Shown here: positions 7,865-25,797 of the stretch, one piece after another
Layout of the letters: every line of letters starts with the position of its first letter
Position numbering within the stretch: position 1 is the first letter of the stretch
DNA from: Terriglobus sp. TAA 43
Lineage (GTDB): Bacteria; Acidobacteriota; Terriglobia; Terriglobales; Acidobacteriaceae
DNA: 64,000 bases
Assembly (NCBI RefSeq): GCF_000800015.1
Contig: NZ_JUGR01000001.1
Coordinates: 2,232,001-2,296,000, forward strand
Reading direction: 5' to 3'
The notes under the pieces: model-generated
What the model was told of the DNA's origin: nothing
The model's database searches: none
Seen by the model: only the letters and a program-made list of their open reading frames with translations
Made by a program: the position numbers and the translations under genes

Positions 7865-7921
7865 GGGAGGTCCGTTCAAAAATTTCCGATCGAAGGAAAT
7901 GTAGCAGACTCGTGTTCTGTA

Positions 7922-7929
7922 TGTCGACA
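7922..7929. promoter_or_regulatory. TGTCGACA palindrome, candidate GntR operator (site 1)
   Basis: Perfect 8-bp palindrome in the divergent promoter region between the DapA-like aldolase gene (start 7864) and the FadR-type gntR gene. The same ATGTCGACA occurs in front of the MFS gene at 10030. Its GT..AC core fits the general GntR-family operator style; binding is inferred. Confidence 0.4.
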
Positions 7930-7964
7930 ATTTGCACACACAAAGTCCGCGATACACTTGCTCC

Positions 7965-8729
7965 GTGCCCCGTCGCTCGAAAACACATCACCCCGGCCCC
8001 AAACCGTCCGTAAGGATGAAGGCGTACCAACTCATCCAACAGAAGATCGCCTCGGGCGAGCTTCGCGCCGGATCACTCCTTAGCGAACTCGCCCTTGCGC
8101 GCGAACTGGGCAGCAGCCGCACCCCCATCCGCGAAGCCGCTGGCCAGTTGTTGGCGGAAGGACTACTGGAACTTAGCCCGGGTGGCGGCCTCCTCGTGAC
8201 GCAACTCACACGTCAGGCCATCGTTGACCTGTATGAATTGCGCGAGGCTCTGGAAGTGTTCGCAGTCGGCCGTGCCGCGCAGAATGGTGTGCGGCCCGCG
8301 GATAAGGAGCGGCTGGAAGGTTTGCTGGCGGAAACACAGGTGTTGCTGAAAGAGTTGAAGAGCAGTGGTTCCGCAGAGCTAAACGCCGAACAGATGAAGC
8401 GGTTCACCGTTGCAGACCTCGGCTTCCACTCGCTTCTGATTCGAATCGCGTCCAACGCGCGCATCCTCAAGGTGGTCAATGACACGCGACTGATGATGCG
8501 CATCTTCGCCATTCAGCGTAGCGGCCATCGCCGCGACGAGTTGGAACGCATCCATCGCCATCACCGTGCGATTCTGCAAGCTGTTCTGCAGTGCAATCCT
8601 GAAGAAGCCCGACGTCTGCTGGCCGAGCATATTCAGGCCAGCGGAAGCGAACGATTGGAGCAATTCGATCGCTGGGAGCGCGAAAACCACCTTGCAGCGT
8701 TGGAATCCGCCACACCTTACGCGATGTGA
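7965..8729 (+). CDS. GntR-family transcriptional regulator, FadR/FCD subfamily
   Basis: A 254-residue DNA-binding regulator. The N-terminal winged helix (YQLIQQKIASGELRAGSLLSE...LGSSRTPIREAAGQLLAEGLLE) is classic GntR. The C-terminal all-helical FCD ligand domain shows FHSLLIRIASNARI and a late HHRAIL histidine, the usual metal/ligand site. FCD regulators typically sense sugar acids or related metabolites. GTG 7965 is preferred: it leaves a short basic tail before the helix. ATG 8016 is the alternative and would remove it. It is divergent from the aldolase-isomerase-transporter unit and ends 13 bases inside the convergent MFS gene, suggesting it controls both. Confidence 0.88.
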   Translation: MPRRSKTHHPGPKPSVRMKAYQLIQQKIASGELRAGSLLSELALARELGSSRTPIREAAGQLLAEGLLELSPGGGLLVTQLTRQAIVDLYELREALEVFAVGRAAQNGVRPADKERLEGLLAETQVLLKELKSSGSAELNAEQMKRFTVADLGFHSLLIRIASNARILKVVNDTRLMMRIFAIQRSGHRRDELERIHRHHRAILQAVLQCNPEEARRLLAEHIQASGSERLEQFDRWERENHLAALESATPYAM

Positions 8730-10091: not shown

Positions 10092-11195
10092 TTACGCCTG
10101 CGCGTCCGACGCGATTGTCGATTGACGAACCACCAGCGTGTGCGAATGGAGTATCTGACGGGACGGGAGATCCGGCTTTTGAATGCGCTCCAGCAGCGTT
10201 TTCACCGCAGTTTGGGCTAGTTCACGACAAGGCTGTCGCATCGTCGTCAGAGGTGGTGTCAACAACGTGGAGTAATGCACATCGTCAAAGCCCGCCACTG
10301 CAATCTCATCAGGAATCCCGCGCTTCAACTGCGCAAGTGTCCGCATGAGCAACGCTGCCGTTTGATCGTTGGAGCAAAGAATTGCATCCGGCTCCGAGAC
10401 TTTCAGCAGATTCGAAACGAACTTGGGATCAGCAGGATCGCCGAAGTACGGGATCTGGTGTCGGGCCTTCAAACCAAATCGACGCACCGCCTCACGACAC
10501 CCCAGGAGTCGAAGATCGGTGGTCGAAGGAAAGTTGTCGCGCGCGACAAAGCAAACCTTCTTGCGCCCCTGTTCCAGCAGGTGTGTCGTGATCGCAATCG
10601 AGGCTGCGACATTGTCGATACCCACCAGGTCAAACTCGCTGCGCGAAGGATATTCACCCAAATCGCGATCCAACAGTACGATCGGAATTTCCTGTTGGCT
10701 TAACTTATCCGCAAGCTTGCGATTCCAGTGGCTCCGATCCGGAATGGATTCAAACGGCGCAAAGAAAACACCATCCACTTTGCGAGCGATGAACTCATTG
10801 CAAAGCTGAAGCGCATCGCCGCCGGTCACAATGGGAGTCGTGGCATCACCCCACAACACGGCGCACCCAAGCGTCTGTGCGAAACGGGTGATCTCGTTGC
10901 AGATGGGATCAAGAATCTCTGTCTTACCCAGACCCGGCACGAAGATGCCGAGCGTATGCGTCTTTGCCGTTTGCACGACCGGTTCCGACGCCAGGTAATT
11001 CCCCGCTCCGGAACGCCGCACGATAACGCCCATCTGTTGCAATTCACGCAAAGCTCGAGCAGCCGTGGGCCGAGAAACTTTATAGCGCAAGCAGAGTTCT
11101 GTCTCGCTCGGAAGGCGCTTTCCACGCGCAAACTTCCCACTGAGAATGTCCCGCTGCAACCCCTCGAATACTGACATGTACTTGTGTGTCTTCAT
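10092..11195 (-). CDS. GntR-LacI hybrid transcriptional regulator (AraR architecture)
   Basis: A 367-residue regulator. Residues 1-70 are a GntR winged helix (VFEGLQRDILSGKFARGKRLPSE...VSRPTAARALRELQQMGVI). Residues 85-365 are a LacI/periplasmic-binding-type sugar sensor (LGIFVPGLGKTEIL, VDGVFFAPFES, DAILCSNDQTAALLMRTL, IAVAGFDDVHYSTLLTPPLTTM). This is the architecture of AraR, which represses sugar-use genes until its ligand binds. ATG 11195 (MKTHKY) matches the usual start of such proteins; the frame is open a little further upstream. A CCTGTAAGTACAGA palindrome lies 5 bases upstream of the start and overlaps the ribosome-binding region, suggesting autorepression. Divergent from fucP. Confidence 0.9.
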   Translation of the reverse strand: MKTHKYMSVFEGLQRDILSGKFARGKRLPSETELCLRYKVSRPTAARALRELQQMGVIVRRSGAGNYLASEPVVQTAKTHTLGIFVPGLGKTEILDPICNEITRFAQTLGCAVLWGDATTPIVTGGDALQLCNEFIARKVDGVFFAPFESIPDRSHWNRKLADKLSQQEIPIVLLDRDLGEYPSRSEFDLVGIDNVAASIAITTHLLEQGRKKVCFVARDNFPSTTDLRLLGCREAVRRFGLKARHQIPYFGDPADPKFVSNLLKVSEPDAILCSNDQTAALLMRTLAQLKRGIPDEIAVAGFDDVHYSTLLTPPLTTMRQPCRELAQTAVKTLLERIQKPDLPSRQILHSHTLVVRQSTIASDAQA

Positions 11196-11199
11196 TGAA

Positions 11200-11213
11200 C
11201 CTGTAAGTACAGA
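11200..11213. promoter_or_regulatory. Sugar-regulon operator, copy 1 (CCTGTAAGTACAGA)
   Basis: 13 of 14 bases of the proposed palindrome CCTGTA-AG-TACAGG, immediately upstream of the GntR-LacI regulator gene. Probable autoregulatory site. Confidence 0.6.
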
Positions 11214-11300
11214 TTTCCCCCTGCATCTGCTTGTCATCTCTATGAGACGAAGGCTAATGTTCGCTTTCGAAACCTATTTCATACGCCAGCTTGCACTTGA

Positions 11301-11314
11301 GCTATCAGTACAGG
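11301..11314. promoter_or_regulatory. Sugar-regulon operator, copy 2 (GCTATCAGTACAGG)
   Basis: 11 of 14 bases match the palindrome, with the right half-site TACAGG intact. It sits 15 bases upstream of the fucP start codon, between fucP and the divergent regulator gene. Confidence 0.5.
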
Positions 11315-11328
11315 TTCCGGAAGCAGCG

Positions 11329-12762
11329 ATGACAGATAATACGAACACAACTACAGAATTGTCCAAAGATTCCATGAACCCTGTAATCATTCGCACGGAA
11401 GCCAGTGCTGACAGCGCAGAGTCAGAAGTCCCATCTCTCAATGCAAGAGATCATGCAATGGCAAGCCACCATGTTCCTGCGCGATTAATTCCTGCAGGTG
11501 CAGTCCGGCCTTTTGCCTTGGTCGCTAGCCTGTTCTTCTTGTGGGGCATTCCGAACAGCATGAACGACGTGTTGATCCGTCAGTTCATGAAATCGTTCTC
11601 GCTGACTCGCTTTGAAGCGGGGCTCGTGCAGTCGGCTTTCTATCTCGGATACTTCGTTCTTGCATTGCCCGCAGGCTTAATGATGAGGCGCTACGGTTAC
11701 AAGCGCGGACTCGTCACAGGCCTATGCCTGTTCGCCGCAGGATGTTTTTTGTTTCTACCTGCAGCCATCTCTGGCACATACACTTTTTTTCTGGGGGCAC
11801 TATTCGTAGTTGCAAGCGGGCTCGCCTTTCTCGAAACAGCCTCCAACCCGTTCGTTGCACAGCTTGGCCCTGAGGCAACGTCAGAACGCCGCCTCAACCT
11901 GGCACAGGCATTCAATCCGCTGGGATGCATCACCGGAGTCCTGCTCGGCACAATCTTTATCTTCTCGGGCGTTGAACTTTCACCTGCGGAAGTGGCCGTT
12001 AAGCAGGCCGATCACACCTATGCAAGCTATCTGCACATGGAAACACTGCGCGTCGTCACACCATATCTGGTGATTGGCGGGATCGCGCTGGTGTGGGCTT
12101 TACTCATTGGCGCAACAACGTTTCCCAAGCTCGATGCGAATGATGAAAGCTGCGAAACTCCCAGCGGTAACTGGCGTTCGTTACTTCACAAGCCGCACTT
12201 TCTGTTTGGCGTCTTCGCACAGTTCATCCAATGCGGCTCGCAGGTTTGCATGTGGAGTTACTTCATTCAGTACTCCAAGGAATACGTAAACCTAAGCGAC
12301 AAAAAAGCAGGCCTTCTGCTCACCTGCATTCTGATCATCTTCGGCATTGGACGCTTCGTTTCCACTGCGCTCATGCAGCGCTTTAGTGCAAGCAGCCTTA
12401 TGACATGCTACGGCCTGACCAACGCGGGACTGCTTCTCTTCGCCATGTTTTTCCCCACATGGGCTGGCGTAATCGCACTCCTGCTGACCAGCTTCTTCCT
12501 TTCGGTGATGTTCCCAACCATCTTTGCGTTTGGAATTAAAGACCTCGGCCCCAACACCAATATCGGCGGATCATTCATCGTAATGGCAATCGTTGGCGGT
12601 GCCGTATTCACACCGATTATGGGATGGCTCGCAGAAACATTGCACAGCACCGCGCACGCCTTTGTAATCCCCATGCTGGGCATGGCTGGGGTTGCAGCTT
12701 ATGCAGCATACATGGGCCAGTACGAAAAGCGTCGCGTTGCAGATTGCGCGGCGCACGCATAA
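11329..12762 (+). CDS. fucP: FucP-like MFS sugar:proton symporter
   Basis: A 477-residue, 12-segment inner-membrane carrier of the fucose/glucose-galactose permease family. Hallmarks are FFLWGIPNSMNDVLIRQF in segment 1, AGLVQSAFYLGYF in segment 2, and FLETASNPFVAQLGPEATSERRLNLAQAFNPLG in segment 4 and the following loop, which is highly diagnostic of FucP relatives. The family imports L-fucose, glucose/galactose or similar hexoses with protons; substrate is not decided here. The start ATG 11329 gives a 60-residue hydrophilic N-tail, longer than E. coli FucP; ATG 11374 or 11458 are possible alternatives. First gene of a plus-strand unit with the secreted glycosidase-like protein and the aldolase, next to its likely regulator. 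Confidence 0.85.
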   Translation: MTDNTNTTTELSKDSMNPVIIRTEASADSAESEVPSLNARDHAMASHHVPARLIPAGAVRPFALVASLFFLWGIPNSMNDVLIRQFMKSFSLTRFEAGLVQSAFYLGYFVLALPAGLMMRRYGYKRGLVTGLCLFAAGCFLFLPAAISGTYTFFLGALFVVASGLAFLETASNPFVAQLGPEATSERRLNLAQAFNPLGCITGVLLGTIFIFSGVELSPAEVAVKQADHTYASYLHMETLRVVTPYLVIGGIALVWALLIGATTFPKLDANDESCETPSGNWRSLLHKPHFLFGVFAQFIQCGSQVCMWSYFIQYSKEYVNLSDKKAGLLLTCILIIFGIGRFVSTALMQRFSASSLMTCYGLTNAGLLLFAMFFPTWAGVIALLLTSFFLSVMFPTIFAFGIKDLGPNTNIGGSFIVMAIVGGAVFTPIMGWLAETLHSTAHAFVIPMLGMAGVAAYAAYMGQYEKRRVADCAAHA

Positions 12763-12885
12763 GTGTGATCTCTACTTTTGCTTGCGATTACTTCGCATGT
12801 CCGAACCAGTGAACAGCCGCACATGGAATTCTTCACGCGTACCTTGCGCACGGAAGAACCAGACGACACGGTGGGAGAAGGAACA

Positions 12886-15396
12886 ATGAAACGCAGATCT
12901 TTTCTGCAGGGAACAGCAGCATCGCTTGCAGTCTCCTGCATCAGTGGAAGCAGGGCGCTGTACGCGCTTGACAGCACTTTGACCGACCTGAATCGCTGTA
13001 CGGTGATCATTCCCACCTCACCTTCCAAACGCGAAGTCGTTGCAGCCGACATGGTGGTCGATGAAATCCTGAAGCACTGCGGTATCACGTGGACCAAGGG
13101 CAACAATGCGTCTGCAGGCACGGTAAAAATCTATCTAGGCACACGCAACAACTGGCATGGACTTGGCTCGGCCGTCTCCAGTGTTTCTGCGAAAGCTGCA
13201 AAATTACCCGCCGAATCCTATGCCATTGCCACAGGCAATGACGGCGGCAGCCCTTGGATTGCAGTGTGTGGCAGCGATGAACGAGGCCTCATCTTCGGCG
13301 CAGGGCGCATGCTGCGCTCGCTCCGGCTCACACGCCGCGCTGTATCCGGCGACCTGAAGGTAATGAACTTAACCAGTTCGCCGCACTACACAGTGCGTGG
13401 TCATCAGCTTGGCTTCCGTCCGAAAACGAACGCATACGATGCGTTCACCGTGGAGATGTGGGATCAATACATCCGCGAACTTGCCATCTTCGGAACAAAC
13501 ACGGTGGAACTGCTGCCGCCTATCACGGACGATGATGCAGACAGCCCGCACTTCGCTATTCCGCCGCAGCAAATGATGATCGAAATGTCACGCATTTGCG
13601 ATAAATACGATCTCGATGTTTCCGTATGGTATCCCGCCATGGCCAAGAACTATGGCGATGCGCAAACCGTCGACGCAGAAGTGAGCAAGTGGGCCGAGGT
13701 TTTGCGCGATCTTCCGCGCGTGGACGTAGTATTTGTTCCCGGCGGCGATCCGGGGCACACTGAGCCCAAATACATGCTGGCGTTGCTGGAAAAGCAGAAG
13801 GCCAGCTTGCGCAAGACACATCCCAAGTTGCAGATGTGGATGTCGCCGCAATCGTTCAATGCGGAATGGCTCGCTGACTTTTTGAAGCTGGCAGCAGATC
13901 CGCATACACAGTCATGGCTTGACGGCATCGTCTTCGGTCCGCAGAACAGAAGCTCCATCACAGAACTGCGCAAGTCACTTCCCGCAAAGTATCCGATCCG
14001 CTTCTATCCGGACATTACGCACAGCATCGAGTCGCAGTACTCCATCAACAACTGGGACATCGCTTATGTTGTCACCGAAGGACGCGAAATTATCAATCCG
14101 CGTCCTGAGATTGAGGCTGCCATTCTGCGTTCGATGTTGAAGGACACAGTCGGCTTCGTCAGTTACTCCGAAGGCGTCAACGACGACGTAAACAAGTTCG
14201 TCTGGAGCCTCGTCTCCTGGGATCCGAAGATGCCTGCCACAGACGCTGTTCGCGACTTTGGCAATTACATCATCGGCGCGAAAGATGGTTCCGCATACGC
14301 GCAGGGCCTCCTTGATCTGGAACACAACTGGGAAGGTCGACTTGCAACGAATGAACTCGTCGATGTGACGTTGCAGAAGTTCCTTTCCATCGAGAGAACA
14401 GCCTCGCCTTTCTTACTGCAAAACTGGCGCTGGCAACAAGCATTGTTCCGCGCCTGCTGTGATGCATACGTGCGCAGACGTTTGCTCTTTGAATCGGGCG
14501 AGCTTGCACGCGCGCAAAGCGTGTTGGAGCGCATCGAAGACTTCGGTTTTGCCTCCGTTCCATGGGGCACAGGAGGCAAGCCGGAACCGATACCCGCTAA
14601 CGGTATTGATCCACAAAATCTCGTAGATGAAGCGATTGATATTTTGCGGAAGGCCGCCGTGGTGCAGATCGCTCCCGCACTCCGCACACGAATCAGCGAG
14701 CTTGGCTATGGACTGTTCCAGGGCATCCATCAGCAACTTTCGGTAGAACGCTTCCAGGGCGAAGGCGTGGAACGTGGCGCACCGCTCGACACGATCGACC
14801 ATCCAGTAACGGATGCCCCTTACTTCCTTAAGCGACTTCGCGCGTTGAGTTCCATTGAAGTGCAGGAAGAAAAGATTAGTGCGATTCGCGCTCTGCTGAA
14901 TCGCACCAACCCCGGCCCCGGTGGCTTCTATGATGAATTAGGCAACATCACCAACCGGCCGCATCTCGTCATCGAAAACGTCGAAGGTGACTTTGACTTC
15001 CGCCGCTCGACACACGTTGGAACAAACTATCCCGACCGCTTCGGTGCCGATGAACCAATGGCATGGAAGCATTGGGCTGAAAGCCTCTATGAAGAGCCGC
15101 TGAAGATGCACTACACAGGCCTTGATCCGAATGTGGAGTACAGCCTTCAGGTCGTGATTTCCGGCGATTCGAAGAATGTAAAGACGAAGCTGATGGCAAA
15201 TGAGTCCACTGAAGTTCATCCAATGCAGCTGCGTCCGTGGCCACCTGCGCCGCAGACATTCGCGCTTCCCAAATCAGCAACCGCGTCAGGCGAGCTTCTG
15301 CTCACGTGGACGCGTGAAGCCGGCCTCGGCGGCAATGGCCGCGGATGCCAGGTCGCTGAAGTCATGTTGAAACCCGTTGTCAAGAAGGAGGCGTAG
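12886..15396 (+). CDS. Secreted glycoside-hydrolase-like protein, unknown activity
   Basis: An 836-residue exported protein with a twin-arginine signal (MKRRSFLQG..., cleavage about residue 27). Residues 30-165 look like the alpha/beta domain found in front of GH20/GH67-type barrels (paired 'ESYAIATG' and 'VCGSDERGLIFGAGRMLRSL' strands). Residues 170-480 resemble a TIM barrel (RGHQLGFRPKTNAYD, IFGTNTVELLPP, LDVSVWYPAM, VFVPGGDPGH, KLQMWMSPQSF). Residues 480-700 are helical and 710-836 form a beta-rich tail. The GH20 catalytic Asp-Glu pair and GH67 acid motifs are not recognisable, so the barrel may use another mechanism or substrate. Start chosen at ATG 12886 because of the Tat signal and the AGAAGGA ribosome site. 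In a fucP-aldolase unit, pointing to an oligosaccharide. Confidence 0.65.
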   Translation: MKRRSFLQGTAASLAVSCISGSRALYALDSTLTDLNRCTVIIPTSPSKREVVAADMVVDEILKHCGITWTKGNNASAGTVKIYLGTRNNWHGLGSAVSSVSAKAAKLPAESYAIATGNDGGSPWIAVCGSDERGLIFGAGRMLRSLRLTRRAVSGDLKVMNLTSSPHYTVRGHQLGFRPKTNAYDAFTVEMWDQYIRELAIFGTNTVELLPPITDDDADSPHFAIPPQQMMIEMSRICDKYDLDVSVWYPAMAKNYGDAQTVDAEVSKWAEVLRDLPRVDVVFVPGGDPGHTEPKYMLALLEKQKASLRKTHPKLQMWMSPQSFNAEWLADFLKLAADPHTQSWLDGIVFGPQNRSSITELRKSLPAKYPIRFYPDITHSIESQYSINNWDIAYVVTEGREIINPRPEIEAAILRSMLKDTVGFVSYSEGVNDDVNKFVWSLVSWDPKMPATDAVRDFGNYIIGAKDGSAYAQGLLDLEHNWEGRLATNELVDVTLQKFLSIERTASPFLLQNWRWQQALFRACCDAYVRRRLLFESGELARAQSVLERIEDFGFASVPWGTGGKPEPIPANGIDPQNLVDEAIDILRKAAVVQIAPALRTRISELGYGLFQGIHQQLSVERFQGEGVERGAPLDTIDHPVTDAPYFLKRLRALSSIEVQEEKISAIRALLNRTNPGPGGFYDELGNITNRPHLVIENVEGDFDFRRSTHVGTNYPDRFGADEPMAWKHWAESLYEEPLKMHYTGLDPNVEYSLQVVISGDSKNVKTKLMANESTEVHPMQLRPWPPAPQTFALPKSATASGELLLTWTREAGLGGNGRGCQVAEVMLKPVVKKEA

Positions 15397-15402
15397 ACCC
15401 CA

Positions 15403-16236
15403 ATGTCCAATGAATATGCCGCAGATCGGCACCCATCCTCTAGCGACACGTGGAGTGTCGTGCGCGAAAGACTGAATGCGGGCGAGTTTGTCCTGGGCAT
15501 GACCGTCACCTCGAACAACGTGGAGACAGCAGCGCACGCTGCCACGCTCGGCTTCCACTTCCTCTGGTGCGAGATGGAGCACTCTTCCCTCTCGCTGGAA
15601 TCGTTGCGCACGATGGTACTCGCTACGCGTGGTTTGCCGGCACCCGTGTTCGCACGCGTTCCATGGCCTGAGGTGTGGCTCGCCAAGCGCGTTCTCGATC
15701 AAGGTGTGCAAGGTGTCATCTTCCCCTTCGTCTCCGATGTAGAGCGCGCACGGAAGGCTGTGCAGGGCTGCCACTATCCTCCGTTCGGACGCCGCGGTTC
15801 AGGTGCAGGTCTCGCAGTCGCCACATGGCCCGCACCGGGCAGCTATTACGACTCCGCAGACGCCAACGTGCTGGTGGTATGCGTAATCGAAGAAGCAGAA
15901 GCTGTGGAGAGGATTGAAGAGATTGCCGCCATGCCCGGCATCGACGTCATCTTCATCGGCGTCAGCGATCTGTCCTTCTCTCTGGGCCTGCGTGGCCGTC
16001 AGGATGAGCCTCTACTGGAAGAAGCTATTACGAAAATCGTTGCAGCAGCACAGCGCAACGACAAATGGCTTGGGCGCCCCGCAGGCAGCGCAGAAGATGT
16101 GCGCCGCTTTCACCAGCAGGGTTTCCAGTTCTTCCAATCCTTAACGGAATTGGGACTGATGAAGCTTGGCGCCAAAGCCCTTCTGGAACCGCTGGGAATC
16201 AAAGACAAGCCGCAGGAACAAACAACCTTCTACTAG
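15403..16236 (+). CDS. HpcH/HpaI-family class II aldolase
   Basis: A 277-residue cytoplasmic aldolase of the HpcH/HpaI family, whose members (2-keto-3-deoxy-glucarate aldolase, 2-keto-3-deoxy-L-rhamnonate aldolase, HpaI) cleave 2-keto-3-deoxy acids to pyruvate and an aldehyde using a divalent metal. Visible family motifs are LWCEMEHSSLSLE (metal/active-site region), YPPFGRRGSGAG (signature loop), VVCVIEEAEAVERIEEI (metal-binding glutamate) and VIFIGVSDLSFSLG. Starts 6 bases after the glycosidase-like gene with GGAGG inside that gene's end, so the two are co-translated. A second, mechanistically different aldolase (DapA-type) is encoded at 6962-7864. The exact substrate is open; rhamnonate-type keto acids are a reasonable guess. 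Confidence 0.85.
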   Translation: MSNEYAADRHPSSSDTWSVVRERLNAGEFVLGMTVTSNNVETAAHAATLGFHFLWCEMEHSSLSLESLRTMVLATRGLPAPVFARVPWPEVWLAKRVLDQGVQGVIFPFVSDVERARKAVQGCHYPPFGRRGSGAGLAVATWPAPGSYYDSADANVLVVCVIEEAEAVERIEEIAAMPGIDVIFIGVSDLSFSLGLRGRQDEPLLEEAITKIVAAAQRNDKWLGRPAGSAEDVRRFHQQGFQFFQSLTELGLMKLGAKALLEPLGIKDKPQEQTTFY

Positions 16237-16256
16237 TCCGTGCCAACCCATCACAA

Positions 16257-16293
16257 ACAAGAAGGCGGATGCAATTTGCATCCGCCTTCTTGT
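16257..16293. terminator. Bidirectional terminator between aldolase and alpha-mannosidase genes
   Basis: Perfect inverted repeat of 18 bases (ACAAGAAGGCGGATGCAA and its complement) separated by one base, so the RNA hairpin has about 16 usable pairs. It lies in the 62-base gap between two convergent genes, with T-rich sequence on the plus strand side and A-rich on the other. Confidence 0.75.
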
Positions 16294-16298
16294 TGTTC

Positions 16299-19200
16299 CT
16301 ACTTAGCTGCTGGTTGCGTGCTTTGCGTATGCCACATACTGTTGCCGCGTGATGGATAAACCAGACGCACAGTGTTGATGGAGTAAGGCTCGGCGTTGAA
16401 TTCAACTTCATTTCCGTGCAGAGCGACCTGCGCACTGGAGTCCTTTACAGGCTGCTCCATCAGGTTGGTCTCCGTTGCCTGTGTTGCGCCCGCGGGAATA
16501 GTGATCTTCGCCCGCGTCTTTTCGCCCGCCCATTCATAAAAGCGGACTGTGAGGCTGTCATCATCCTCGCTCTTCTTGATCGCTGTCACAACGATGTTGT
16601 GCTGTGCAGCATGAACAAGAGAGTGATTCGACGGGAGGTCGCCGCCATGCGCAATCGCCTGCACAGCCTGCATCGGATAGTTAAATTCGTATCCACGCAG
16701 AACTGTATCGGCCTGCTTCCACGTAGCAGCATGCGGATAGAGCGAGTAGCCGAAGTGGTGATGACCACGGTCAGCCGTTGGATCGGGATAGAGCGGTGCA
16801 CGCAACAATGACAGGCGAAGCGTATTGCCAAGCGCATCGTATCCGTACTTCGAATCGTTGATAAGGCTCAAGCCATGCTCGCTATTGCCCAGGTCCGCCC
16901 ACTTCTGTGCTGAGACCTCAAAGCGCGCGGCATCAATGGCATTGTCACGCGTAGTAGGACGCTCGATGCTGCCGTACGGAATTTCATACGTTGCATTCGC
17001 GCTGGTTGCAGTGAGCGGGAAACTCGCTTTCAGCAGCACGTGAGTCTCATGCCAATCAATGTCATTCACCACGTCGACACGAGGCGAGTTGGCATACAGG
17101 GTAATGTCCTGCACAAAGGTGGACTTGCTCCAATGCCGCTTGATCTGAATGACGGAACGCAGTGGGCCGTGCTCGATTGTTTGGATGCTGTCGAGTTGTG
17201 TGATATCGGTTTCGTTCTTGTCGTATCCCTTGTCGATATTCCACGCGTCTTCAACACGGATGCTGTCGAGATTTACTTCCGTCAGGCCGCGGCCCAAGTC
17301 AACAAATGTCTCAAGCTTGTTGCCACATTGGTCGGGAGCGATGCTCTCAAACTTTGTGTCCTTGCGATACAGGCTCGTAATGCATCCAGTCTTCGGATCA
17401 AGCGTGACGCGCAGCAAGTTGTTTTCCAGCGTTGTGCCATGTACAGAAAGATCGCTTGGGACCGCGCGCTGACCGGGAACGGCATGCAGCACGGTGTATC
17501 CAATCGCGGGTACACTCTTCGGCTTCAGCAATAGCTGATATGTGTTGGTCACCTTGTCCTGCGACAACACCTGCATGGGTACGGGTTGATTATTCGCGTC
17601 AAGCACGCTGATGCCGGCCGGTGTTGCATGTGGCATCTGCACCGTGGCGGTGACCGCATCTGAACGATCCCAGCTCAGGCTGTTCCACACAATGACAGGA
17701 ACGCCCGGCTGCGCTGCCGTGTTGATGTGGTGCTGCAACTCGCTGATAGCATTCTCCTCAGCTTCATTGGCGATGCGATGCGCTTCGTCGTAGTCATGCT
17801 TTGCATCGACATATGCTGCAGCAATCGCAGTCCCCGATGCGACATCATGAAACTCGTTGAACGCCTTCTTCTTCCATGCCTGCGTGAAGGATTCACCGGG
17901 ATAGTTCAGTCCACTCAGCCATGCGAGCGACGAAAACTTCTCCGCATCCAACAGCCACTGATCACTGCGACGCATATGGGCCTTCTGGTCGCTGTGTGTG
18001 GTGTAAGTGCCGCGATGATGCTCGAGATAGATTTCATCGTTCCACACAGGCAGGCTGATCTTGCCCGCAGCAGATGCTGGCAACCGCGTGTTTCCTGCGG
18101 CAAGCGTTTTGTAGTTCCAGACGGGCATGCCAGTCGTAGCTACCTGCGCATTCATGTCATCAAAGAATGCCTGCGACGTACGGAACTCCACACGCGGATA
18201 GACACGCTTCGGGTTTGACCAGTTGATGCCGTTCTGAATGGCCGTGCGTGCATCGTAGATATTGAGACGGCCAAGGCTGGGTCCGTAGACGTGCATCAGT
18301 TGCTTCTGGCCTGGGTTCAGTTCTATCGCAACAGCCGCGTCATGCGCAATCTCAGACGCTTCCGTGTCTTTCACGATGTCGTGCGGGAAGTACGAAAGCA
18401 CACGGCTGCCATCCGGTGACTGCCACCAGAAAAGTTTTAGCGGCAATTGATTCGTGTCGTTATAACGGAGCTTCTGCGTAACGAAGTAATCGATACCGGA
18501 CTTTTTATAAATCTGCGGAAGCTGCCAGTCGTAACCGAAGGAATCAACGTTCCATCCAATCTTGACGTCATAGTTGAACTTTTTCTGGAAGTACCGCTTG
18601 CCCAGCAACAACTGGCGCACCTGCGATTCGCCATCGGTCATGTTGAGGTCGGGCTCAATCCACATGCCGCCCACCGGCTCCCAACGCCCTTCCTTCACAC
18701 GCTTCTGAATCTCGCTGAACAGTGCAGGAAACTTCTCTTCGATCCACTCGTAGTACTGCGCGCTGGACTGCGAGAAGATGTACTGCGGATATTCGTGCAT
18801 CATCTCAATCGCGCTGGCGAACGTGAAGTGGACCTGATCAACACCTTCAGAGGCAGTCCACAACCAGGCCGCATCAATGTGTGCGTCGCCGGTAAGTTGG
18901 ATGAAGAATTTCTTGAGCACCGGTTGCAACGGCTCCAGCGCAGCTTGTGCCTTAACCATGGAAGCATCAAAAGCAGCCTGATCGTTGTGATCCAGCGCGC
19001 TCAAATTAACAGAAGATGCTGCTGCATCCAGAAGCTTCTCCTGAGCTGCGAGCTGATCCTTATCTGAGATAAGAGCTGGCAGAAGCTCTGCCGCTGAAGC
19101 AAGCTCCGTAGCAAGCGCAGTCGGATCCGGACGATTCGGCACAAAGTTCACATCAACATAAGCACCTTCAAAATGCTTGATGTCCGTGCTCGGCGGCATC

Positions 19201-19691
19201 TTCACCGCGATCAGAATCTTGTCGCCAGGCTTCGCGCTATCAATGACAGTGCGTGGTCCAATGTATGTTCCTTCTGTGTCCTTACGGCCGTTGTAATAGA
19301 TCACTTCATACAGGTACCCGCGGCCCGGGCCATAACCACCGACGTCCACTTTGAACGTAATGCGCGCGCCCGTTAGATCGTAGCCATTCAGTGTCTTCGG
19401 CACCTCGATCCACCGACGAATCCAAATCTCTTCCTTCGGCGCAACAAACGGAAGCTTGATCGTCTTCCAGTTAGAAGTATCGAGGGCTGGGTTTTCACCA
19501 TGTTCAATCGGCCCTTCGTGATACTGCCATTCGCGCGCGTCGAGCGATGCAAACGAGGACAGCCGCTGCACAACAGCTTGCCCCTGTGGAGAGAACTTGT
19601 AAGAAGGCGCAACGTTGGACTGCGCCATCAGCGGCACAGCGAGAGTCGCAACGGAGGCGAGCACGGCAAGGAAACGCGGCGTGGAATACAT
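16299..19691 (-). CDS. Secreted alpha-mannosidase, GH38
   Basis: A 1130-residue exported enzyme with a Sec signal (MYSTPRFLAVLASVATLAVPLMAQ). Residues 50-185 form a jelly-roll-like domain. The GH38 catalytic domain begins near 263 with TGDAHIDAAWLWT (zinc ligands His271 and Asp273) and continues through GGMWIEPDLN and GWNVDSFGYDWQLPQI, whose Asp383 corresponds to the retaining nucleophile. The long C-terminal beta domains match the length of full bacterial GH38 proteins. Retaining alpha-mannosidases release mannose from alpha-mannosides. Minus strand, 186 bases after the TonB receptor gene and probably in the same PfkB-receptor-mannosidase unit. The signal peptide suggests periplasmic or surface action on imported or bound mannosides. 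Confidence 0.93.
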   Translation of the reverse strand: MYSTPRFLAVLASVATLAVPLMAQSNVAPSYKFSPQGQAVVQRLSSFASLDAREWQYHEGPIEHGENPALDTSNWKTIKLPFVAPKEEIWIRRWIEVPKTLNGYDLTGARITFKVDVGGYGPGRGYLYEVIYYNGRKDTEGTYIGPRTVIDSAKPGDKILIAVKMPPSTDIKHFEGAYVDVNFVPNRPDPTALATELASAAELLPALISDKDQLAAQEKLLDAAASSVNLSALDHNDQAAFDASMVKAQAALEPLQPVLKKFFIQLTGDAHIDAAWLWTASEGVDQVHFTFASAIEMMHEYPQYIFSQSSAQYYEWIEEKFPALFSEIQKRVKEGRWEPVGGMWIEPDLNMTDGESQVRQLLLGKRYFQKKFNYDVKIGWNVDSFGYDWQLPQIYKKSGIDYFVTQKLRYNDTNQLPLKLFWWQSPDGSRVLSYFPHDIVKDTEASEIAHDAAVAIELNPGQKQLMHVYGPSLGRLNIYDARTAIQNGINWSNPKRVYPRVEFRTSQAFFDDMNAQVATTGMPVWNYKTLAAGNTRLPASAAGKISLPVWNDEIYLEHHRGTYTTHSDQKAHMRRSDQWLLDAEKFSSLAWLSGLNYPGESFTQAWKKKAFNEFHDVASGTAIAAAYVDAKHDYDEAHRIANEAEENAISELQHHINTAAQPGVPVIVWNSLSWDRSDAVTATVQMPHATPAGISVLDANNQPVPMQVLSQDKVTNTYQLLLKPKSVPAIGYTVLHAVPGQRAVPSDLSVHGTTLENNLLRVTLDPKTGCITSLYRKDTKFESIAPDQCGNKLETFVDLGRGLTEVNLDSIRVEDAWNIDKGYDKNETDITQLDSIQTIEHGPLRSVIQIKRHWSKSTFVQDITLYANSPRVDVVNDIDWHETHVLLKASFPLTATSANATYEIPYGSIERPTTRDNAIDAARFEVSAQKWADLGNSEHGLSLINDSKYGYDALGNTLRLSLLRAPLYPDPTADRGHHHFGYSLYPHAATWKQADTVLRGYEFNYPMQAVQAIAHGGDLPSNHSLVHAAQHNIVVTAIKKSEDDDSLTVRFYEWAGEKTRAKITIPAGATQATETNLMEQPVKDSSAQVALHGNEVEFNAEPYSINTVRLVYPSRGNSMWHTQSTQPAAK

Positions 19692-19824
19692 ATCTTGGGT
19701 CCACCTATTGTGTTGGGCTGAAGCTCAACCGTCGGACTGCGTTCCCGATCGATTCGATAGACTCAGCATCCTTCGTACGGGAAAGGGCGGAGATGCCCAA
19801 AGGCCATCACCGCCCCTCCTTAAT

Positions 19825-19868
19825 AGAACCCGCAGCACCGAAATGTAAAGGTAACTGCGGGGTTTTCT
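19825..19868 (-). terminator. Weak terminator-like hairpin after the TonB receptor gene
   Basis: Arms AACCCGCAG (19827-19835) and CTGCGGGGTT (19855-19864) with a 19-base loop, followed on the minus strand by TTCTATT. It may only partly separate the receptor gene from the mannosidase gene. Confidence 0.35.
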
Positions 19869-19877
19869 AGTTCGATG

Positions 19878-22800
19878 TTAGAACTCGACCTTCATCGAGA
19901 ACTGGATGAACCGCGGCAGATTGCTCTGGTCCATTGCACCTGCAATCTTGCCAAAGTTTCCGTTGTTCACGTCAGAGATTGGGCCGTTAAAGAACTGTGG
20001 AGAGTTGAAAGCGTTGATGAAGTCAGCACGGAAGGCTGCATTCACATGCTCGGTGATTTTGTTGTTCTTCGTGAGTGAGATATCGATGTTGTGCACGCCC
20101 GGCAGGCGAACGCTGGAGAGACGCGTTTTCCAGGTTTGCAACTCATTCGCCTGACGAACGCGCCACACAGCCGTTTCACCGCTTTGGCAGGTACCGTTTA
20201 CAGACCCGCAATTATTGAACCAACGAGCCAGGGTCGGATTCGCCAGAGCGGGATTGCCAATTGGCACAGAGTTCGTGCTGTTCGTCAGATCAAGCGGCAT
20301 ACCTGCCTGCAGACGTACTAGCGATCCCATATCCCATCCGCTGATTGCCCAGCGTACCGGAGCTACCAGATGCGATCCATAGGCGCGATTAGAGCCAAAG
20401 GGTAACTGCCACAGAAGGCTGATCTGCATGTTACGCGGAATGTCCCACGCTGCAATCACCTTCTGCAGTTGCGTGTCCTGAGGGTTCGAATAGAGCTTCT
20501 GATCCAGCTGCTTGGACATGGTGTATTGCACCGAGAAATCCAGGCCATAGGACAGGCGCTTCTGCAGCACAAACTGAGCGGCGTTGTAGCTGGAAGTTCC
20601 GATGGGAATGTACTGCTCTGTGATACCGCTGGTGCCTGTAATTGTGCCCACGAGGAACTGCGGGTACGGTGCCAACAGCTGCTGCCGCTGAACCGTTGCA
20701 CCGTTCAATGCCGTTCCAGGAAGCAGACCAGCAAATGGATTTGCGACGCTTGCCGTCAGGTAAGCATTGCCATAACCGATTGCGCTCAGAGGAACTGCGT
20801 TGATCTGATGGTTAACGGGCAGACGTCCGAAGCGCGTTCCCACATACGACGCGGTGAACAGAAAGTCCTTGGGGAACTGATGTTGAACGCCAAAGGAGAA
20901 CTGCTGTACCGTGGCCGGTTTCGCATTCTGGCTTGCATACGAGAAGCTCTGTCCCAAGTAGGTCTTCAGACCGTTGGATGCGTAGGAAGGTGCCTGAACG
21001 CTGCTGTTTGGGAACGGATCGGTCAGCGTGTTCGCCGGAACACCTGCCGAAACCGACGTGACCATGTTGGTCGTGTAGCTGAAGCCAGGTGCTTCGCCTG
21101 GATCATTCACAACCTGTCCATAAAGCAATCCATAGCCGCCACGCAGCACGGTATTTTTATCAACCTGATAGGTAGCGCCGAAGCGCGGTCCCAGGTTACC
21201 CCACTTCTGATTCGTAACGTTGCGCGGTTGCCCATTGACACCGGCAAATACCAGGCCGCCGTAAAGCGATTGTCCCGGAACAGCCAACGGATTTGGGGTC
21301 GACGGATTGAAGGTTGCCAATCCGTTGAACCGGTCGGTAAGTGGTCCTTGATAATCCCAGCGCAGTCCCACATTCAGGGTCAGATTCTTCCGGACGCGCA
21401 CATCGTCCTGGAAATACAGCGAGAACATCTTTACCTGGCGTGTTGGGAAGCTGTTCACGTCGATAGAGCCCGATTGTGGTGTGCCCATCAGGAACGAAGC
21501 AATCGCATTGCCCGATGTGGAATTTACAGCGTTAGGATTCGAACCAGTGAACTGCTGGTCAAAAACGAACTTGCCAGAGCTATTACCAGGGCTTTGCACG
21601 TTGTTACGCAGCAGTCGCATATCAATGCCGGCTGTCATATTGTTATTGCCAGCGGTCTTAGCTACCGAAGCGCCAATCGTGTAGTTGTAGCTCGTGGTGA
21701 TGTTCGGCGGAGTTGCGCCTGCACCGTTGTAGTTAGCCCAGGTAAATTGCGGGAAGATGTTTGCTGCTTGACCAGCGAAGCCGGACGAGAATCCGAGTGC
21801 GCTGGGTCCCGTTCCCACACCTTGAGATCCACCACTTGCCGACTTGAAACGCTCAAGACCGACACGTACGGTAGCCACGGTCGTTGGATTCACGATCCGA
21901 GTAAGCTGTACCGTTCCGTTGTGGTTTTCACGTGTAAACGGATTATTCGTGCTCGTATCCGCAATGTTCAGAGCGGAAGTTGTCGAGTAACGGAAACCAC
22001 GTGCTTCCGTGAGCGAGTTACGAGAATAGCGCCCGAAGATACGCGTCGCATCGCTCATGGTGTAGTCCACGCGCACCGTATTTTCCGGAAAGTAGTCAGT
22101 AAACTTACGGCTGCCAGGGCCATTCGTCAGGTTATTCAGCCCGGTAATAGGAGCATTTTTAACATTGCCAGAAGGAACCATCGACAGGACCTTCAGAGCA
22201 ACGGGATTCATCGGACGGCTGAGGTTCTTCAGGTTGTTTCCCGGAACCGGAGTACGCGTCAACACACCATTTACGGTTGTCGTCGAGAAAGGATCATAGA
22301 TCGTTATCAATTTTCCGTTTGCATCAACCGTCTGCGAGAAGTCGCCGACCTTCTGCAGATCGGTCGGCACGGAAACAACAAACGGATCCGGGATGCTCTG
22401 CCGAAGATCTTCAAACGTATACGCGGCAAAGAGCTTGTTCTTCAGGATGGGCCCGGTAATGTTGAAGCCGAAGATGTTGATGTGCGAAGAAGAACGCGGT
22501 TGTCCGGTGTAGTTGCTATTGAAGGTATTCGCGTTGAGAACCGTGTTCTGGAGGAACTCCCACGCAGACCCATGGAACTGGTTCGTACCACTCTTGGTCA
22601 GGATGTTGGTAATACCACCAAGCGACCATCCGTATGCAGCGTCGTAGTTCGTGGTGTGCACACGCACTTCGCTTGTGGCTTCCTGCGTTGGAATGTAGGA
22701 GGCTGATGCACCGTTCTGGAGGGCGCTCATGCCATCCACCAGAATTTCGTTCGTGCTATTGGGTGATCCGTTAACGGAGATGCCCGACGTACCTGCAATA

Positions 22801-23333
22801 TCAAATGCACGAAGACGTGTATCGGATGACGTGACCAGAACGCCAGGTACGGAGAAGATCGCCGAAATAGGATTGCGACCCTGCGTTGGCAGAGCCATCA
22901 ACTTCTCCTGCCCCAGCGCTGTGGACTGTGTAGCAGTCTCTGTCTCAAGCTGTGCAGCGGACGCTGTCACGGTGACGTTTTCGCTCACGTTACCGGGAGT
23001 AAGGGTGAAATCGATGGCAGCACGCTCAGCAATTGCAAGCTGCACACCATTGCGGATGCTCGTGGTGAACGAGGGCTGCTGAACGGTGATGGAATATTGT
23101 CCCGGGTTCAACGCGACCACGTGATAGTAGCCGTCTTCACCAGTAACCGTCGTCGAGGATACACCTGTCTGGACATTCAGGACGACGACCTTGGCGCCCG
23201 GCAACGCAGCGCCACCGCTGTCTGTTACCTGACCATCCAGCGTCGCCTGTGTGCCCTGCGCGAACAGCGGAGCGGAGCACAAAAATACGAGAGATGCCAG
23301 CCCTGGGAGGGACCGTGTAGAACGAAAGTACAT
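19878..23333 (-). CDS. Oar-like TonB-dependent outer-membrane receptor
   Basis: A 1151-residue outer-membrane protein. It has a Sec signal (to about residue 25), then a carboxypeptidase-regulatory-like/SdrD-B-like domain (TQATLDGQVTDSGGAALPGAKVVVLNVQTG), a plug-like region with LPTQGRNPISAIF and INGSPNSTNEILVDGM-type sequence, and a long barrel with many 'NLTLNVGLRWDYQGP'-type strands. It ends in an aromatic residue (SMKVEF), as barrel proteins do. This Oar-type architecture is characteristically expanded in Acidobacteriota. It likely imports or binds oligosaccharides for the co-encoded alpha-mannosidase. CTGGAGG ribosome site 7 bases before the ATG. Downstream of the PfkB kinase gene (179-base gap). 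Confidence 0.93.
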   Translation of the reverse strand: MYFRSTRSLPGLASLVFLCSAPLFAQGTQATLDGQVTDSGGAALPGAKVVVLNVQTGVSSTTVTGEDGYYHVVALNPGQYSITVQQPSFTTSIRNGVQLAIAERAAIDFTLTPGNVSENVTVTASAAQLETETATQSTALGQEKLMALPTQGRNPISAIFSVPGVLVTSSDTRLRAFDIAGTSGISVNGSPNSTNEILVDGMSALQNGASASYIPTQEATSEVRVHTTNYDAAYGWSLGGITNILTKSGTNQFHGSAWEFLQNTVLNANTFNSNYTGQPRSSSHINIFGFNITGPILKNKLFAAYTFEDLRQSIPDPFVVSVPTDLQKVGDFSQTVDANGKLITIYDPFSTTTVNGVLTRTPVPGNNLKNLSRPMNPVALKVLSMVPSGNVKNAPITGLNNLTNGPGSRKFTDYFPENTVRVDYTMSDATRIFGRYSRNSLTEARGFRYSTTSALNIADTSTNNPFTRENHNGTVQLTRIVNPTTVATVRVGLERFKSASGGSQGVGTGPSALGFSSGFAGQAANIFPQFTWANYNGAGATPPNITTSYNYTIGASVAKTAGNNNMTAGIDMRLLRNNVQSPGNSSGKFVFDQQFTGSNPNAVNSTSGNAIASFLMGTPQSGSIDVNSFPTRQVKMFSLYFQDDVRVRKNLTLNVGLRWDYQGPLTDRFNGLATFNPSTPNPLAVPGQSLYGGLVFAGVNGQPRNVTNQKWGNLGPRFGATYQVDKNTVLRGGYGLLYGQVVNDPGEAPGFSYTTNMVTSVSAGVPANTLTDPFPNSSVQAPSYASNGLKTYLGQSFSYASQNAKPATVQQFSFGVQHQFPKDFLFTASYVGTRFGRLPVNHQINAVPLSAIGYGNAYLTASVANPFAGLLPGTALNGATVQRQQLLAPYPQFLVGTITGTSGITEQYIPIGTSSYNAAQFVLQKRLSYGLDFSVQYTMSKQLDQKLYSNPQDTQLQKVIAAWDIPRNMQISLLWQLPFGSNRAYGSHLVAPVRWAISGWDMGSLVRLQAGMPLDLTNSTNSVPIGNPALANPTLARWFNNCGSVNGTCQSGETAVWRVRQANELQTWKTRLSSVRLPGVHNIDISLTKNNKITEHVNAAFRADFINAFNSPQFFNGPISDVNNGNFGKIAGAMDQSNLPRFIQFSMKVEF

Positions 23334-23512
23334 TGTGTTGCCTCCAGTTAAGTTGGTCGCGGACGAAGTGTTTCTGCAAAGAAAACTGCGGCAAATAACA
23401 CAATCAGGAGCTTCGTCTACGAATTTTGGGCACTGCTCACCCGGGCCGGTCGGGCGAAAGTTGCTTGCGCCGTTTGACCAGGCTGCTCAGTACTCGATGT
23501 TGAGTGGTCGCT

Positions 23513-24592
23513 TTACGGGTATCGCACTCCCGCTGCTGCCAGAATTTCGGCCGGCGACGCGGTGCCGGTCGTTTGAAGCTTTTTCACGGTCACGGTAGCC
23601 GCAAGGTTTGCCAGCGTGGCAGCCTGCAACGGTGTTGCCCCTGTCGCCAGGGCGGCAGCAATCGTTGCAACCACGGTGTCTCCTGCGCCTACTGTGTCGA
23701 TCGGGCTTTCAATAGGCCATCCTGCGATCAACGAAACTCTTCCATCGGCCGCCACGGCGATTCCCTTGTCACCGCGTGTAATAAAGGTCGGCTTGGAAGT
23801 GCGTTCGTAGATACGTGTTGCAAACTCGATGGCTCGTTCATCTTCATGCAGCGATTCAGGAGCTTCATTGAGAAGCTTTGCTGCTTCGCCCATGTTCACC
23901 TTCAGAAGAGCACCGGAGAATTTCTCCAGGTGGTGGCGTGCGTCCACAAGGAACACAGCCTTCTTCGAACTTGCAATGATGTCGTTCAAACGTTCAATCA
24001 GCTTTGGCGAGGACACACCGGTCTCTACCTGCTGATTGAGAATCACCACATCGTGCTTCGCTGCAGCGCTCTCCAATCGCTCCAGCAAACGTTCCGTAAC
24101 GGATTCGCTCGATTCATTAAATCCACCGAAGTCGATCCGGCCTTCTTCCAGATTTCCGATGCATGGCTTGGCATAAACCATGGTTTGCCATGCGGCATCC
24201 TCGATGACATCGCAACTGCAATTGCGATAATCCGTCAGCATGCTATGCATCACTGCTCCGAATGGATCGGTACCACTGATGCCGATAGCCTGAACATGCC
24301 CTACATTCAGCGCTGCCAGATTCGCAACCACATTGCCAGCGCCGCCGAGTGAGTACCTCTGCCGTTGTACGCGCCGCACCTTCAGGCCTGTCTCCAGCGA
24401 ATACTCCTCTTCGCCTTCATGCAGGTCCCAATAGGCATCAATACAAAAATCACCAAAGACCGCCAATGAGCTTGACTCCATACGAGTCAGAACAGACGAG
24501 AACCATTGATGAACATCTTCGGAGGCGCGTAGCCCCTCTTTCGTGACCGGCTTGGCGGCCTCTTGTTGGTGTTGTTTTTGCACGTAAAGCAA
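23513..24592 (-). CDS. PfkB-family carbohydrate kinase (RfaE-type)
   Basis: A 359-residue sugar kinase of the ribokinase/PfkB superfamily. It has the N-terminal strand LAVFGDFCIDAYWD, the sugar-binding GGAGNVVANLAAL motif, NQQV, and the C-terminal ATP/anion-hole signature DTVGAGDTVVATIAAAL with catalytic Asp. Closest in layout to the kinase half of heptose enzymes (RfaE/HldE), but no cytidylyltransferase domain follows and the neighbours are sugar-uptake genes, so it may phosphorylate a hexose or deoxyhexose product. A TTG at 24592 or GTG 24583 are the likely starts; the first ATG (24481) would leave almost no sequence before the first strand. A regulon operator lies 45 bases upstream. Confidence 0.85.
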   Translation of the reverse strand: MLYVQKQHQQEAAKPVTKEGLRASEDVHQWFSSVLTRMESSSLAVFGDFCIDAYWDLHEGEEEYSLETGLKVRRVQRQRYSLGGAGNVVANLAALNVGHVQAIGISGTDPFGAVMHSMLTDYRNCSCDVIEDAAWQTMVYAKPCIGNLEEGRIDFGGFNESSESVTERLLERLESAAAKHDVVILNQQVETGVSSPKLIERLNDIIASSKKAVFLVDARHHLEKFSGALLKVNMGEAAKLLNEAPESLHEDERAIEFATRIYERTSKPTFITRGDKGIAVAADGRVSLIAGWPIESPIDTVGAGDTVVATIAAALATGATPLQAATLANLAATVTVKKLQTTGTASPAEILAAAGVRYP

Positions 24593-24918
24593 ACTATGAG
24601 GACGTAAACATGACTGGCAAGCACGCGACCGGAAAAGCTGTACTTACGTGCTATGGAGGATGTGACGGCGAACTCCGGACCCGTCTGAAATAAGAGGAAT
24701 CGCGCGGGTTCATGCGCTGAACAGCCCCAGATACAGCACCTTGGTTATTCTTAGTGCATTAAAAGTGAGTACGGTATTTGTCTTGAATATTTGAGCCAAT
24801 ACCAACTGCTGCCAGTACGCCTGTAAGTACAGGAAAAGGGGTAAGTGAGAACACATGCAGGACGCTCACACATTACTTTGGAATTTGTCTGCTTAAACCA
24901 ACAAACAAGAGGAGTGCA
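24593..24918. promoter_or_regulatory. Divergent promoter region with two regulon operators
   Basis: A 326-base gene-free stretch between the PfkB kinase (minus) and the endonuclease/phosphatase-fold gene (plus). It holds two copies of the sugar-regulon palindrome: GCTGTACTTACGTG at 24637-24650 (11 of 14, kinase side) and the perfect CCTGTAAGTACAGG at 24820-24833 (about 85 bases before the plus-strand gene). I see no small open frame with a ribosome site. Confidence 0.6.
24820..24833. promoter_or_regulatory. Sugar-regulon operator, copy 4 (perfect CCTGTAAGTACAGG)
   Basis: Perfect 6-2-6 palindrome. It shares CCTGTAAGTACAG with the site at the regulator's own promoter (11200), 13.6 kb away. Copy 3, the imperfect 24637-24650 site, is on the other side of the same intergenic region. 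Confidence 0.6.
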
Positions 24919-25797
24919 ATGGAACCGCTGCAAGTATGGTCTCTCAACGGGGAACGTTTTATAGGTGATACTCCCGAGGAGATACCATCGACAGTTAACT
25001 GGCTCAAGGGCTTATCAGATCCCGATGCCGTGGTTCCTGACGTTCTTTGCCTGCAGGACTTTCGCGCCAGTATGGTTGCGTATCTCAGCCCACTGCCTTA
25101 CTTCTCATTTGTTCCTATGACCATTCAGAGCTTCTGGGGCAAACGAGAATCTCTCGGCATCTGCATCGCATCACGTTGGCCCATCGATGAAATTGAAATC
25201 CATCACACATGGGGCGACGGCGTTGTACGCGACCTGGAGGGCGTAGGCGAAGACAACCAACGCACGAAGCCGCTCGATGAATCCGACGCACTCATCCTCA
25301 AGACGCAGAACCGCATCGCGGTTGCCTGCAGTGTGCATCGTCCCGGTGATGAAAAGCCCTTTCGCGTTGCCACGCATCATGGCTTCTGGGTACGTGACGG
25401 CATCCCCACTGCAAACCAGATGGACAGTACCGTTTCCGTCTGCCGCTTCCTCGAAGAACAAGGAAAGCGTTATGGCGGTTTGCTCTACGCAGCCGATTAC
25501 AACCCGGACAAAGAGGGCAACGTACTACGCACGTATGAGCAATTCGGCGGCGTGGATTGTGTCCCGCTCGAAATACAGACAACCCTGGCTACGCATCATC
25601 CTGCGTACCGCTTTGGCATTCGCTCCGATTGCATGATGGTCTGGCCCGACAGCGAAGGGCAGTATCACTATGCCGTCGAAGATATTCACCTGGACCCAAC
25701 TCCCGGCAGCGATCACGATATGCTCTGCGGCAGAGTCAGCTTTCTTGATGCACCGCTGGAGAATACCTTCGGACATCTGACCGCCATCTGCCGATAG
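24919..25797 (+). CDS. Endonuclease/exonuclease/phosphatase-fold protein
   Basis: A 292-residue protein with the order of motifs of the EEP superfamily (metal-dependent phosphodiesterases and phosphatases): an N-terminal 'VWSLNGE' strand with the Asn, VLCLQDF where the family has QE, ATHHGFWVRDG with the His, YAADYNPD corresponding to (G)D-x-N, and SDHDML as the terminal SDH. The metal-binding glutamate appears to be aspartate here (LQD). No signal peptide, so cytoplasmic. GAGGAG ribosome site. It follows a regulon operator that it shares with sugar genes; what phosphoester it acts on is unknown. Convergent with the TRIC gene, 4 bases apart. Confidence 0.65.
   Translation: MEPLQVWSLNGERFIGDTPEEIPSTVNWLKGLSDPDAVVPDVLCLQDFRASMVAYLSPLPYFSFVPMTIQSFWGKRESLGICIASRWPIDEIEIHHTWGDGVVRDLEGVGEDNQRTKPLDESDALILKTQNRIAVACSVHRPGDEKPFRVATHHGFWVRDGIPTANQMDSTVSVCRFLEEQGKRYGGLLYAADYNPDKEGNVLRTYEQFGGVDCVPLEIQTTLATHHPAYRFGIRSDCMMVWPDSEGQYHYAVEDIHLDPTPGSDHDMLCGRVSFLDAPLENTFGHLTAICR

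Follow-up and report, generated by a model that had tools for sequence, protein, structure and literature searches.

This report concerns a 64,000-nt stretch of the Terriglobus sp. TAA 43 genome (contig NZ_JUGR01000001.1, positions 2,232,001 to 2,296,000), referred to here as the window, and within it an island of sugar genes that carries a GntR-LacI (AraR-like) regulator and four copies of a 14-base palindrome, CCTGTANNTACAGG. The copies lie in pairs in two divergent promoter regions (divergons), and we propose that they are probably operators through which this regulator controls itself and the genes flanking both divergons. The genes and sites are the following (ORF, open reading frame).

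10092-11195, minus strand: GntR-LacI (AraR-like) regulator, 367 aa (PF00392, PF13377)
11200-11213: candidate operator 1, CCTGTAAGTACAGA, 1 mismatch, 5-18 nt 5' of the regulator ATG at 11195
11301-11314: candidate operator 2, weak, GCTATCAGTACAGG, 3 mismatches, 14 nt short of the likely fucP ATG at 11329
11329-12762, plus strand: FucP-like sugar:H+ symporter (TIGR00885; start inferred)
12778-15396, plus strand: uncharacterised protein, longest ORF 872 aa (weak GH20b and GH67N matches)
15403-16236, plus strand: HpaI/HpcH-type aldolase (PF03328)
16299-19691, minus strand: GH38 alpha-mannosidase-like protein (PF01074, PF07748)
19878-23333, minus strand: TonB-dependent-receptor-like outer-membrane protein (PF25183, PF13620)
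23513-24592, minus strand: PfkB-type sugar kinase (PF00294; start uncertain: TTG 24592, GTG 24583 or later)
24637-24650: candidate operator 3, weak, GCTGTACTTACGTG on the plus strand, 3 mismatches, matching on the minus strand, 5' of PfkB
24820-24833: candidate operator 4, CCTGTAAGTACAGG, perfect palindrome, 0 mismatches, 85 nt short of the EEP-like ATG (86-99 nt before it)
24919-25797, plus strand: EEP-like orphan protein, 292 aa (PF03372 below cut-off; in 3 of 150 relatives)

A first-pass annotation of this DNA had named the four sites and the type of regulator, and both were confirmed. The sites match the palindrome with 0, 1, 3 and 3 mismatches, and the regulator combines an N-terminal GntR winged-helix domain (PF00392, 55.1 bits, cut-off 27) with a C-terminal LacI/periplasmic-binding sugar domain (Peripla_BP_3, PF13377, 109.1 bits, cut-off 26.5). 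The arabinose repressor structure PDB 3tb6 matches residues 165-360 at 2e-9, and other LacI-type chains score better. Each divergon contains one strong and one weak site, with the strong sites beside the regulator and EEP-like genes and the weak ones beside fucP and PfkB. One site had been placed over the start region of the regulator and one just before fucP. Their closeness to the two starts was upheld, operators 1 and 2 lying within 5-28 nt of start codons, and the 11200 site overlaps only start extensions of its two neighbour ORFs. The regulator start is best set at 11195, because a related genome (G008, see below) lacks one base between 11195 and 11237, which breaks the longer frame. A promoter-like match at 11365-11336 (minus strand) lies 5' of the regulator (0.3 expected by chance), and operators 1 and 2 would then fall within the regulator leader; another, at 24620-24593 (minus strand), lies near PfkB (0.6 expected by chance).

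The frequency of the motif was assessed at the level of the window, of the divergons and of the genome. At up to three mismatches the window gives 10 match rows with both strands listed, compared with a mean of 1.94 in shuffled sequences, and none of 100 shuffles reaches 10. Six of these rows are the four named sites; the others are at 21407-21420 (within the TonB-like gene), 42015-42028 (two rows, intergenic) and 61313-61326. The 14 letters of 42015-42028 are also present at one place in the genus genome G003 (L070), and its surroundings gave no BLAST match. Furthermore, both intergenic regions, 11196-11328 and 24584-24918, were simulated with Markov models. A 14-mer common to both at 13 or more of 14 positions arose in 43 of 4,000 simulations, and one as palindromic as that observed in none of the 4,000. 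The four distinct positions observed at up to three mismatches compare with a simulated mean of 0.039, at least two being reached in 0.13% and at least four in none of 3,000 simulations. As the motif was chosen post hoc, these figures serve as guides rather than as formal probabilities.

The exact palindrome occurs at a single place in the 4.95-Mb genome (G000), at window position 24820. At no more than one mismatch there are 13 places as against 8 for a reversed control (13, 11 and 10 in G000, G003 and G008, reversed control 8, 13 and 7), and three of the 13 in G000 (L001, L006, L008) overlap no ORF of at least 90 aa. Of the exact 12-base core CTGTANNTACAG, G000, G003 and G008 have 6, 4 and 7 copies, respectively; among the 19 genomes of the genus, only the three with the regulator show two such cores at the island with 13.6 kb between them. 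The expected contrast with genomic background was thus borne out for the near-exact, paired sites at the island and failed for the degenerate motif; a degenerate scan was rejected as a regulon finder, since matches at up to two mismatches do not exceed the control (153 and 176, respectively). As a side observation, CTGTANNTACAG is scarce in the other 16 genus genomes, several of which are fragmented assemblies, with 18 places in total as compared to 80 for the reversed control; the corresponding figures for the regulator-bearing trio are 17 and 16.

Two of these genomes of the same genus, G003 and G008, hold the whole island with the tested genes in the same order and at 85-99% protein identity, a range that takes in partial matches at stretch ends. 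Operators 1 and 2 are identical in all three genomes. In the second divergon, 13 of the 14 columns of operator 4 and 12 of the 14 of operator 3 are invariant, as are all 20 columns of 24821-24840, beside a spacer (24651-24819) in which only 32.5% are. In the phylogenetic footprinting that had been suggested, the PfkB- and EEP-proximal sites are thus retained beside a spacer that is not. The distance between the operators is nearly constant in the trio, at 100-101 bp in the first and 180-183 bp in the second divergon.

The sites occur together with the regulator. A near relative of the regulator is present in three of the 19 genus genomes (E≤1e-110) and in three of 398 sampled genomes of the family (E≤1e-102, with up to five candidates per genome being scored), the own genome being included in both counts; at E≤1e-60 a match is found in 27 of 150 relatives. 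The regulators of the trio have the recognition helix SRPTAARA in common, which is present in none of 26 aligned homologues (38-48% identity). When placed against AraR, this helix appears to keep R41 and to have alanine at the R45 position. A search for related loci gave two distant ones. The genome G051 holds a related cassette of FucI-like (82%), DHDPS-like, MFS, 872-aa (76%) and HpaI (81%) genes; the 19.9 kb of it that were read contain no regulator match and no site at up to one mismatch, and the G051 regulator homologue (43%) sits on another contig. Two other words recur upstream of the 26 homologues: AAGTTGTA within 200 nt in seven, and GTTGTATA in the upstream regions of five (L036, L038, L040, L041, L045), which is perhaps an operator or promoter of a sister group.

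How the motif relates to described systems can be judged from two sources. According to the first (PMC4494728), GntR-family sites have a GT...AC pattern in common, with mostly 4 nt between GT and AC in HutC-type and 2-3 nt in FadR-type sites, and a divergon with double sites, each by its own operon, is a described arrangement; both the GT-N4-AC palindrome and the double sites thus have their likeness in HutC-subfamily regulons. The geometry of the predicted 14-mer operator fits a HutC/AraR-type GntR protein. HutC proteins carry a different C-terminal domain from the LacI/periplasmic-binding one of the regulator described here. According to the second (PMC4218819), Bacillus subtilis AraR is a repressor with the ara box consensus At(T/A)tGTaCGTAcaa(A/T)T, the core of which, tGTaCGTAca, is matched by the core TGTAAGTACA in 9 of 10 letters. 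The two systems resemble each other in the joining of a GntR DNA-binding to a sugar-sensing C-terminal domain, in a box at the regulator's own gene, in having several palindromic boxes, which in B. subtilis are doubled in three of five promoters (cf. the paired sites here), and in placing uptake, polymer breakdown and catabolism under one control (PMC4218819), which for Terriglobus is predicted. They differ in the outer bases of the box, which are CC/GG here and A/T-rich in B. subtilis (PMC4218819), and in the target genes, which are other than those of AraR. The outer bases speak against an AraR orthologue, and the regulator is thus termed AraR-like only.

Overall, we put at about 70% the probability of a circuit in which an AraR-like repressor uses the paired operators of the two divergons to control its own gene, the fucP genes, PfkB (probably with TonB-GH38) and the EEP-like orphan. 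Through its GntR winged helices, a dimer of the 10092-11195 protein would bind CCTGTANNTACAGG; it most likely represses and would be released on sugar binding by the LacI-type domain, and the paired sites may cooperate. Its targets would be the regulator gene itself, the fucP, 872-aa and aldolase genes, PfkB, the EEP-like gene and probably the TonB and GH38 genes downstream. Of the single regulon that the first-pass annotation had drawn, the conserved sites and their co-occurrence with the regulator stand as observed; the common control and the joint PfkB-TonB-GH38 transcript are predictions.

Several points weigh against this. The operator function is a prediction from sequence. Operators 2 and 3 each carry three mismatches, and at up to two mismatches the motif is at genomic background, so that only near-exact sites are informative. 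The first divergon is 94% invariant throughout, and the conservation of operators 1 and 2 therefore says little by itself. In the second divergon, conservation extends past the sites into gene-proximal sequence (24584-24634 at 74.5%, 24834-24918 at 80%), so that part of it may reflect constraint on a leader or promoter. The three genomes are close, belonging to one clade with regulators 95-96% identical, and the co-occurrence is thus one evolutionary event. In the 300 nt upstream of each start, three of the 26 homologues, all of which have other helices, carry a site at up to three arm mismatches (L055, one arm mismatch at -159; L024, three at -24; L048, three at -41). Finally, the promoter-like match near PfkB would place operator 3 upstream of the -35 element, where simple repression fits less well.

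The island contains a further regulator that could compete for the sites. The first-pass annotation had counted only two divergent promoter regions, which proved incorrect: a third, at about 7865-8012 by the predicted starts, separates a DHDPS-like gene (minus strand) from a GntR-FCD regulator (plus strand) that had been overlooked. Its features are as follows.

7921-7931: candidate FCD-regulator palindrome, ATTGTCGACAT, GT-N2-AC, kept in three genomes
8013-8729, plus strand: second regulator, GntR-FCD type (PF00392, PF07729; start inferred), the rival binder

It is unlikely that the 14-base sites belong to this FCD regulator, to a 48% paralogue of the AraR-like regulator on contig C3 or to an unrecognised protein. 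The FCD regulator is encoded in the same island, and GT...AC is a pattern of GntR-family sites in general; its FadR/FCD-type sites would, however, have 2-3 nt between GT and AC where 4 are found here (PMC4494728). In addition, the third divergent promoter has none of the 14-base palindrome sites and instead has the conserved GT-N2-AC palindrome. The assignment of ATTGTCGACAT to the FCD regulator is only likely, because 1.12 matches to its pattern at up to one mismatch are expected per window in shuffles. As for the paralogue (L024), its upstream region has CCTGTCACTGCATG at -24, with three arm mismatches, but its recognition helix differs. In the favoured reading, the ABC transporter/isomerase/DHDPS half of the island, which lacks the 14-base sites, probably answers to the FCD regulator.

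That the same regulator acts on the same sites by activation or mixed control rather than by plain repression appears quite unlikely. Operator 3 would be upstream of the promoter-like match at 24620-24593, and the distance of operator 4 from the EEP-like ATG would also suit an activator. Operators 1 and 2, on the other hand, are so near to start codons that they would occupy a blocking position, and the architecturally nearest relative described, AraR, acts as a repressor (PMC4218819). We consider it very unlikely that there is no operator at all, the elements being kept in leaders or promoters for another reason and the common 14-mer a coincidence. The conservation beyond the sites, the background frequency of the motif at up to two mismatches and the 43 simulations with a common 13/14 word would agree with coincidence, but a common word as palindromic as the observed one never arose in the 4,000 simulations. 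Moreover, no Rfam family matches the candidate operator regions, and the predicted folding of the EEP-like leader does not surpass that of shuffles (z 0.25).

Whether the AraR-like repressor acts beyond its island was considered for a second locus. At G000:C1:2566137, an unlinked gene for a 409-aa protein has an exact CTGTACCTACAG 29-40 nt 5' of its ATG and belongs to a sugar cluster, with GalT, GalK, PMI-like, GH67, MocA-type and 3-keto-disaccharide-hydrolase-like genes nearby; the protein has no Pfam match at 1e-3 (longer ORF) and no NCBIfam match at 0.1. CTGTACCTACAG is present in this leader in all three regulator-bearing genomes and in none of nine orthologues without the regulator. The leader is strongly conserved among the trio in any case, so that this target is a lead only, and it appears doubtful that the regulator acts there. 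If it did, an older promoter under separate control would have acquired a lineage-specific repressor. A second palindrome in the same promoter, TGAGACGTCTCA, is common to three genomes without the regulator and is probably the operator of some other regulator; it stands just after a TTGACA/TACGCT-like promoter (L127 11000-11200, minus strand; L135-L140) and in six of 12 orthologous leaders.

The other CTGTANNTACAG places in G000 lie inside a 441-aa ORF (1228240), upstream of a 711-aa ORF (1967260; the listings of G003 and G008 show none with this centre) and across the stop codon of a 3-keto-disaccharide-hydrolase-like gene (2561541; kept in G003). Five of the seven places in G008 are outside the island. 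Four overlap ORFs, one of them being the leader of the G000:C1:2566137 type, and the place at 1335174 is at the end of a DUF885 gene. When these off-island places were compared with G000 by position, only the leader could be demonstrably matched.

Within the island, fucP, the 872-aa ORF and the HpaI gene are consecutive on the same strand. The FucP-like protein scores 373.6 bits with TIGR00885 (cut-off 280.4) and stays below the cut-off of a second fucP model (NF007524, 354 and 427, respectively); similarity sets in near residue 120 of the long ORF, and a start later than 11329 is possible. The real start of the 872-aa ORF is probably also later than that of the longest ORF. This ORF has no Pfam family at 1e-3 and is possibly an undescribed glycosidase family; homologues are found in 19 of 150 relatives, several with HpaI, MFS or FCD-regulator genes alongside. 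On the other side, the PfkB, TonB and GH38 genes lie 179 and 186 bp apart, and neither gap shows a promoter-like match, which is weak evidence that they would form one transcript. A hairpin between the TonB-like and GH38 genes (19760-19850, minus strand; z -2.66, three of 200 shuffles fold equally) is mostly conserved in three genomes and is a possible attenuator, terminator or processing site. The EEP-like protein scores 15.9 bits with PF03372, under the gathering score of 24.5, and has no PDB sequence match; its single-sequence structure model reaches a pLDDT (predicted local distance difference test) of 36.6. Its ADYN and SDH stretches, which we take to be EEP signatures, are invariant across three orthologues.

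When taken together, the sequence comparisons point to a probable local AraR-like operator set, a circuit of an ordinary kind whose prediction in these few related bacteria is new; limited literature searches found no published report of it. The results provide concrete candidate operators and targets of a GntR-LacI regulator that, among the sampled genomes, is confined to three related species. By tying the 872-aa protein, the GH38 enzyme, the TonB-type receptor and the EEP-like orphan to one sugar signal, the predicted regulon would narrow the search for their substrate. Furthermore, a motif unlike the AraR box in its outer bases, together with a helix unlike those of 26 homologues, may serve as a modest natural experiment on site choice by GntR proteins.

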